Made by a program: the position numbers and the translations under genes. The notes beneath the pieces were generated by a model, which worked only from the letters and a program-made list of their open reading frames with translations, did not search any database and was not told the DNA's origin. Shown here one piece after another: positions 655 to 3,700 of a DNA stretch of 64,000 nt. Within the stretch, counting starts at the first letter, position 1. Each line of letters starts with the position of its first letter. Source of the stretch: Chiridota heheva. Its lineage: Eukaryota; Echinodermata; Holothuroidea; Apodida; Chiridotidae. Where the stretch lies: assembly GCA_020152595.1 (NCBI GenBank), contig JAIGNY010002236.1:938501-1002500 (forward strand), read 5' to 3'.

Positions 655-785
655 GGATCTAAGACATAGTTATACTGGCCCTCGACATTCCGCTCTTGGT
701 GGTACGTAAGGTTGTAGGACATCATGATACTAGTAAGCTCTGCCAGTTGTCGTTTCTCATGGACACTGAATAACTGAGTGTTGAT
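655..785 (-). CDS. CHTF18: CHTF18 exon 18, last exon in the window
   Basis: Reads [17 protein letters not shown] and then [20 protein letters not shown], equal to human VSTQLYSTREKQQLASL ... YSLTYRQERTPDGQYIY. Donor GTAAGT follows two bases into the next codon. The acceptor ACCAATAG at 786 is the first copy of a 41-bp unit that is repeated upstream, so the true exon start assumes use of the exon-proximal copy. Later exons are off the window. Confidence 0.92.
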
Positions 786-3700
786 CTATTGGTACACAAA
801 CAAGAGCAAAGTAACTAAGTGTTAATCTATTGGTACACAAACAAGAGCAAAGTAACTGAGTGTTGATCTATTGGAACACAAACAAGAGCAAAGTAACCGA
901 GTGTTGATCTATTGGTACACAAACAAGAGCTAAGTAACTGAGTGTTGATCTATTGGTACACAAACAAGAGCAAAGTAACTAAGTGTTAATCTATTGGTAC
1001 ACAAACAAGAGCAAAGTAACTGAGTGTTGATCTATTGGAACACAAACAAGAGCAAAGTAACAAGAGCAAAGTAACTGAGTGTTGATCTATTGGTACACAA
1101 ACAAGAGCTAAGTAACTGAGTGTTGATCTATTGGTACACAAACAAGAGCAAAGTAACTGAGTGTTGATCTATTGGTACACAAACAAGAGCAAAGTAACTG
1201 AGTGTTGATCTATTGGAACACAAACAAGAGCAAAGTAACTGAGTGTTGATCTATTGGAACACAAACAAGAGCAAAGTAACTGAGTGTTGATCTATTGGTA
1301 CACAAACAAGAGCAAAGTAACTAAGTGTTGATCTATTGAAACACAAACAAGAGCAAACTAACTGAGTGTTGATCTATTGGTACACAAACAAGAGCAAAGT
1401 AACCGAGTGTTGATCTATTGGTACACAAACAAGAGCAAAGTAACCGAGTGTTATGATTTTGACATGCAATACAGGTGTAATACAATGTAAGTGGAAAGTG
1501 GACAAAATAATAGGAGACTCATTGCAATAGTGTCAGGTGCAATACTGGAAGGATGCAATACAGTCAGATTGCAATACCATCAGATTGCAACTGACCGATT
1601 GCATTATTTTCAAACTGTCATAATCAGATTGCAATATAGATTGTAATACATCAGATTGCAATAGTAAGAATGCAGTGCAATTAGACTACAATACTGTCAG
1701 ATCACAATAACATCAAATTTCAATAACAGTTAAGTTGTAATTCTGTCAGATTATAATACAATTGATCGCCGTCGTTTTAATAGTATTTACAGTCAAATTC
1801 TTTGCATTGCAGTCTGTAACATTGTGCAATTCATTCTGATTGTATAGCTATGTTTTATGAGGCCATCTACCCCAATCAAAACCCAAAGACCATACAAATG
1901 TAATGCAGTACCACTGCAAATTGGTCAGATTGAGGTCCAGTCTTGGGTCAGTATAATCTGATTACGATAACAGCTGTAGTGTCATTCATTTCTCATTGCT
2001 TGCAATCAGACTCATCGGTTAAAATACAATTGGTATGTATTCGGACTGCAACATCATCTGGGTGAGCTACAGCTGATTTTAATCTTAACCTAGAAACAAC
2101 TAAGCCCATCAGGCCGGTTCTTATCCACCATTTCTTGGCAGCAATAAGGTGGATAAATAAAAATGATTTTTCGGACAGGATGCAATTGGCAGAGCTGATA
2201 CTCATTTACAATTGGATGGACTAGAGCAAGGATTCTTAATAGGTGGCCCTAAGCCCATCAGGCCGGTTCTTATCCACCATTTCTTGGCGTAGGTGGATGA
2301 GAGCACATGACTCCCCGGACAGGATGCTTGACGGCAGAGCTGATACTCATTTACAATTGGATGGACTAGAGCAAGGATTCTTAATAGGTGGCCCGTGGGC
2401 CAAATCTGGCTGGCTCTGGCCCTCAAACAATAGTCAGTGGAAAAAAATATATACTACGTCCCGATCAATCTGAATGAGATCGGTACAAATCGCAAAATCA
2501 TCGTGTATTTTTGATTTCCAAGGCAGATTAGCACACTAGAAAATTGCAGCTTATCAAATAAAATGTTATCTTTAGTTCCGCCATAAAAAGGCAGACTCGA
2601 GACATGTCAAAGGAAGGTGGATTAAAGAACCGCCCACATAACATCTGGTATAGAATCGCACATGCTCTCAGCTTGTATGTATTAAGGGATTGTTTTGACG
2701 AGTTTTGCTTGTCATGTGATACTGGTTTTGCCACGCGATTGGCTCGTGGCCTGAGGCTGTTGTCAAATGGTGGCCCTTAGAAAAAATCAGTTAAGAAAGC
2801 GTGGACTAGAGAGCAAAGAGAAAGTGTCTTGCTCCAGAACACAACACAGGTCTTTGAGATGGGAGTCAAACCCAGTACCTTTTACCAGACCCATAAAAAA
2901 TGTATGGTTCCCGTGATTAAAACCACTGGAAAAACAAAAATTCATGAGAAGAACAACATTTTTTTAGATTTCTTGAGTAAGCAACACCTCTAAATATGTG
3001 TTCTAAAAACGTCCCCCTTGTATTTTTTTTGTTTTTTGTTTGTTTGATGAGGGCTTAACAGCACCACGACAACGAAGGTCAAATGTGCCTGAGAGGTCAG
3101 ATCATTCTAGAGGTAGGAAGGAAAGGAAACAGGGGGAGAATGAGATAAATCTAAGAACAAAAAGTCAGAAAGCTGTGATTGAGAGGGGAGGTGCATGGTT
3201 GAAACAAAAATAAAGTAGAGAGGGGGTGGAAGAGGAGAATTAAATATGGTTGTAGTGGGAGGCATGATAAAGGAAGGAGATAATTTTATGCGGGGAATTT
3301 TTCTGGAAGAACTCAGGAATTGAGTTGTGGGGAGCGAGGGAAGCTGTGGGAAGGTTGTACAGGGGGCAAGCAAGAAGAATGTGATGGATAGTGAGGGTGC
3401 AGTGGCAATTGTTGCAGAGGGGTTGGGGGGAGCCAATAAGGAGGTGGGAGTGAGTAAGGTGGGTGATTGTGCGATGAATAGTACATTAAATTGCCCAAGA
3501 GGGAAGCATATAAAGATGTATTCACTATATCACTATTAGTATTATTTATGTCACAATTATTCGTGGGAAGATTTTTGACACCTTTATTCAAAACTGTGGA
3601 AAATTTTGAAATTAATTCAAAGTCTGTCTTTCACATATCAACACAAGTCCTTAATGACTGTGCCTATACCAAATAAGGGTACATAATTCAACACTTGCAA

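Follow-up and report, generated by a model that had tools for sequence, protein, structure and literature searches.

A probable mirage minisatellite: sixteen tandem copies of an acceptor junction in the CHTF18 gene of Chiridota heheva

The window analyzed here is a stretch of 64,000 nucleotides from the genome of Chiridota heheva, in which CHTF18 is encoded on the minus strand. Eleven exon cores of the gene were recognized by phmmer comparison with PDB chains and human CHTF18, from about position 24824 down to 655, although three of the eleven (near 24824, 24082 and 9827) were individually weak. The exon at 785-655, the eleventh CHTF18 core mappable in the window, was found at a single location in a search of the 1.1-Gb assembly, and the 3' end of the intron that precedes it is occupied by a tandem array. 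The features of this region are as follows.

3760..3908, minus strand: preceding CHTF18 exon, ending in TTCAGACCG before the donor gtgagc, phase 0 (phmmer, translation, boundaries)
786..3759, minus strand: intron with the array at its 3' end (boundaries of the flanking exons)
771..1452, minus strand: tandem array of a 41-bp unit with 16 acceptor copies, 15 decoys and the authentic site (Tandem Repeats Finder, motif matches)
1441..1452, minus strand: outer partial unit of exon-derived bases, AACACTCGGTTA (unit alignment)
1045..1075, minus strand: 14-bp local duplication inside the array (Tandem Repeats Finder)
771..811, minus strand: exon-adjacent unit, equal to the array consensus, with 26 intronic bases (811-786) and 15 exonic bases (785-771)
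655..785, minus strand: array-bearing CHTF18 exon, 131 bp, ending in NYVLD before the donor gtaagt (translation, boundaries, phmmer to human CHTF18)

The preliminary description had placed the array at 655..1452; its outer end indeed lies at 1452, but the inner end is at 771, position 655 being the donor end of the exon. Over this interval, Tandem Repeats Finder reported periods of 41 and 123 bp. The figure of about 16 tandem acceptor copies was borne out with ACCAATAGATCAACACTCAGTTA, a 23-base piece spanning the intron-exon junction, which matched 16 times at 771-1422 with at most three mismatches, each time on the minus strand, and had no match at that limit in 100 shuffles, ruling out a chance repeat. 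The consensus unit, CTTTGCTCTTGTTTGTGTACCAATAG/ATCAACACTCAGTTA (the slash marks the junction), comprises 26 intronic and 15 exonic bases and, together with the boundaries of exon 785-655, confirms that the true junction and the exon's first 15 bases recur in each unit. Across the 16 units, the differences from this consensus number 0 to 4, and the exon-adjacent unit has none. The step from unit to unit is 41 bp throughout, with a single exception of 55 bp owing to the 14-bp local duplication. Certain types of variant reappear in order in the unit alignment, as would be expected if blocks of units had been duplicated.

Tandem copy number is prone to misassembly, and the presence or the length of the array might in principle be an artefact of assembly. 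This appears very improbable in view of the ordered recurrence of unit variants, the 14-bp insertion, the single location of the array sequence in a search of the 1.1-Gb assembly and the similar arrays at unrelated junctions described below.

At the junction all 16 units read AATAG/AT. A recursive (zero-length exon) splice site was rejected on these grounds, as it needs AG/GT and every unit reads AG/AT. TTAC, a candidate branch-point motif, can be read 27 nt upstream of most of the AGs in the array; such a branch point might be built in part from the exonic bases of the preceding unit.

The protein predicted across the 3760/785 junction (SFRP followed by the residues of the next exon) aligns without gaps with human LRPVSTQLYSTREK (phmmer). 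An exon start at a CAG 12 nt inside the exon was considered and rejected; it scores -2.3, versus 6.0 for the authentic acceptor in the matrix described below, and the VSTQ-like residues would be lost. The initial 15 exonic bases are identical to the array consensus, which would also suit an array that came first and an exon start recruited from it later. These bases, however, encode INTQL, which phmmer aligns gaplessly with VSTQL of human CHTF18 in an otherwise conserved stretch of the protein. The array therefore came from the junction and not the reverse, and the array-first order is extremely improbable. In the sequence of events proposed here, replication slippage or unequal exchange would have duplicated 26 bases of the intron end and 15 bases of the exon start, and tandem expansion of the duplicated junction into the intron would have followed. 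The exonic copy was presumably kept intact by selection on the protein.

The strength of the acceptors was assessed with a simple position matrix built from 124 of 140 acceptors of exons in the C. heheva genome. The authentic acceptor scored 6.0, the 12th percentile, a rank that may be understated by a matrix whose acceptors were chosen by a pyrimidine threshold, which favours strong sites. Six of the 15 decoys share an identical 26-nt core with the authentic site, five exceed it (scores 7.6-7.7) and four fall below it (5.2-5.9). The claim that the spliceosome is offered many near-identical acceptors thus holds, most decoys matching or exceeding the authentic site. With six identical and five stronger decoys, the strength of the core acceptor is unable to select the authentic site, and we infer that selection must come from its position beside the body of the real exon. 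Most likely, the spliceosome would pick the exon-adjacent copy through exon definition of the 131-nt exon. Against such use stands the fact that the decoys are transcribed first and that most of them are as strong or stronger, so that sequence strength leaves the choice unexplained.

Use of a decoy would lengthen the exon from 131 nt to between 172 and 760 nt. It had been pointed out previously that extra units shift the frame and that three units in a row meet a TAG. This is correct yet incomplete, since in the phase 0 reading all 15 decoys reach a stop within the exon; in units 1, 5 and 13 the stop is already the fourth codon. Consequently, none of the 15 would give the full-length protein. 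These stops lie 102 to 703 nt upstream of the exon end. A stop more than about 50 nt upstream of the end of an exon usually targets a transcript for decay, and by this rule the decoy-spliced transcripts would be decay targets. The predicted chain from decoy use to premature stop and probable mRNA decay would thus cost a modest loss of transcript; the array would be nearly neutral.

The same properties could be read as a dial on splicing, in which a greater number of decoys yields a larger unproductive, decay-bound share of CHTF18 mRNA and the length of the array tunes output, either as a cost or as regulation. The position of the decoys upstream, their equal or greater strength in the acceptor matrix and the stop that follows each of them are all in line with this proposal. 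No tie was seen in this analysis between array length and expression, however, and we consider the dial unlikely. The length-dependent splicing switch suggested in the preliminary description found no support. As all decoys lead to a stop, a switch could merely reduce output or yield a truncated protein, and the array is in keeping with a minisatellite process of a general kind, also evident at a few other C. heheva junctions and in amphioxus genes.

The load of such repeats is very high. Counting periods of at least 10 and at least three copies, 57 minisatellites were found in a 264-kb stretch of the contig that bears the array (10 kb of which reads N), or 216 per Mb, covering 48.7 kb in total. 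Splice junctions elsewhere in the genome were surveyed in 140 exons, consisting of 60 of 68 myosin-head matches and 80 of 120 kinesin matches, with Tandem Repeats Finder and visual inspection of near cases. The myosin sample comprised ranks 1-54 and six of the last 14 (eight dropped); four of these six had unusually long open frames, and none of the six was positive. The kinesin sample comprised ranks 1-81, minus one match holding ten in-frame stops. Exon edges were those of the HMM matches, with AG or GT checked by eye near arrays, and were not transcript-based. Two of the myosin matches, G000:C1473:125400-128204 and G000:C2872:96791-100243, lie in frames that stay open for 979 and 1183 codons, respectively, perhaps because an intronic array whose period is a multiple of 3 lacks stops.

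In four of the 140 exons, one of them (L054) recognized by eye, an array was detected that repeats the exon's own donor junction, and one further kinesin exon has an array at its acceptor. Coordinates are those of each surveyed locus.

L038, 399-607, plus strand: donor-junction array, 30 bp x 6.9 (Tandem Repeats Finder, automatic rule)
L063, 1-236, gene on the minus strand: donor-junction array, 58 bp x 4.1 (Tandem Repeats Finder, automatic rule)
L094, about 343-416, gene strand: donor-junction array, 18 bp x 4.1 (Tandem Repeats Finder, automatic rule)
L054, 113-199, gene on the minus strand: donor-junction array, 45 bp x 1.9, two copies, added by eye
L153, 1-173, gene strand: kinesin acceptor array, 44 bp, running up to the acceptor (automatic rule)

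The units of the donor arrays join the exonic end to gtgagt or gtaa, in about two to seven copies. In L054 the exon extends about 22 bases beyond the HMM edge, hence its inclusion by eye. The L153 array may include diverged exonic bases, which is doubtful, as its tail resembles the exonic bases about as well as do 57 of 1000 shuffles. Arrays near an edge that by eye contain intronic bases alone (L087, L096, L098, L115, L151 and some others) were not counted.

By the automatic rule, four of 280 boundaries were crossed, namely the donors of L038, L063 and L094 and the acceptor of L153. In 6000 random 480-base tiles of the 264-kb stretch, a null drawn from a single contig, 3.2% of boundaries were crossed, which gives 9.0 expected versus the four seen (P of four or fewer = 0.056). 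For arrays of at least three copies, three crossings were seen versus 5.7 expected. Donor crossings numbered three versus 4.3 expected (P = 0.38) and acceptor crossings one versus 4.7 expected (P = 0.052); without L153 the latter P is 0.009, so that the asymmetry between donors and acceptors weakens once this array is included. With crossings at or below the rate in random tiles, junction-copying arrays are what the array load alone would be expected to produce and, if anything, have been thinned by selection. An acceptor case like that of CHTF18 may be the rarer kind, in a small sample and against a null from one contig, and acceptor arrays rarer than chance would suggest harmfulness. Such a possible shortage in the 140 exons would accord with the splicing dial as well, for which the array load of the genome leaves no need, a function being superfluous to explain the array. 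A broader proposal is that junction-copying arrays are pervasive (on the order of 1-2% of splice junctions, or thousands), that donor copies are tolerated and acceptor copies mostly purged, and that copy number at CHTF18 sets the productive fraction of its mRNA; as a whole, this is quite unlikely.

Arrays of this kind have precedents. Excerpts of two amphioxus reports (PMC3087553, PMC3902484) describe mirage minisatellites in Adh3, the globins BflGb6 and BflGb9, troponin C and PGBD5, in which tandem copies run across the intron-exon boundary, on either side of the exon, with AG or GT in many of them. In the same excerpts, regular splicing is reported for the Adh3, globin and troponin C mirages, which argues against the splicing dial, the PGBD5 repeats are based on sequence alone, and the Adh3 mirage shows somatic length instability. 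For amphioxus huntingtin, tandem repeat elements are mentioned for two scaffolds in an excerpt of PMC2206037. Like the amphioxus mirages, the 16 CHTF18 units span the boundary (26 intronic and 15 exonic bases) and keep the splice signal AG in every unit. In contrast to BflGb6, whose units of 150-160 bp occur in six and three copies, the CHTF18 array consists of 41-bp units in 16 copies, in another gene and probably another phylum.

Two other systems bear a partial resemblance. The account of donor-element duplication toward [D] stwintrons in Lipomyces (PMC7138796) likewise involves a splice element duplicated near its parent junction, but in yeasts, at a donor and with nested introns, whereas CHTF18 carries a long acceptor array in which no nested intron was seen. 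CeRep25B of C. elegans, linked to multiple alternative splicing in an excerpt of PMC4039745, is likewise an intronic minisatellite near splicing decisions, but it is a repeat family with regulatory motifs, unlike the copies of its own junction at CHTF18. Among the literature matches listed (titles and beginnings of abstracts from part of the literature), none concerned a mirage outside amphioxus, which does not imply absence from print. Judged from its sequence, the CHTF18 mirage minisatellite is known in kind, new in its gene and probably new in its phylum.

Additional searches of the genome concerned other families. Two tektin exons were identical at 104 of 123 and 97 of 121 positions to chains of 8snb, a sea-urchin sperm structure, the next chains (8i7o, 9cpc) reaching 71/121 and 68/121; a third tektin exon was nearest to Tektin-3 chains of entries other than 8snb. 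These comparisons make an echinoderm host likely and an amphioxus host unlikely. The COX1 family gave no genome matches, with a positive control, and the GFP family gave none either, a weak absence since its positive control also gave none.

Several other arrays and frames are apparent in the window. At 12243-12978, within a CHTF18 intron and away from mapped junctions, lies a 31-bp x 23.7 array whose minus-strand unit has a donor-like AGAGGTGAGG. A second array within a CHTF18 intron, 45 bp x 61.6 at 17266-20037, with a period that is a multiple of 3, keeps two plus-strand frames open, one over 608 and one over 332 codons. Apolipoprotein matches of one 13001-27999 frame were dismissed, as they arise via the 45-bp array alone and are of low complexity. 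The 55-bp x 13 array at 27977-28698 (TTGGTGAGT and ACTCACCAA) has a donor-like motif on both strands per unit. In a 21-bp x 5.3 array at 56985-57096, TTTCTTTATAGGTAGGCTACT, each unit links the acceptor-like TTTCTTTATAG with a donor-like GTAG, much as in a recursive splice site; no neighbouring exon was found. Reverse-transcriptase-like frames were noted by eye in translations at 45327-46638 (minus) and 53.8-56.1 kb (plus). One domain passed the Pfam cut-off, and none of the other Pfam domains did among ten ORFs or pieces of the window, some perhaps scanned in the wrong frame. Rfam gave no matches in the window at gathering thresholds.

57658-57993, plus strand: HYR-domain exon (Pfam, sole match past the cut-off)

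Taken together, these observations favour, with a probability of about 0.75, a tolerated mirage minisatellite at CHTF18, a by-product of the minisatellite load in which the exon-adjacent acceptor is mostly used. The arrays of similar kind at other junctions of the C. heheva genome support this reading, in which the array would reflect a very high minisatellite load rather than adaptation. Should the spliceosome pass over acceptors identical to the authentic one, the CHTF18 locus would amount to a natural experiment in the choice of one among 16 equal sites. The occurrence of junction arrays at several sites, apparently beyond amphioxus, suggests that genomes rich in minisatellites steadily make spare splice sites. 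Such sites were put forward as raw material for new introns in the amphioxus globin paper.
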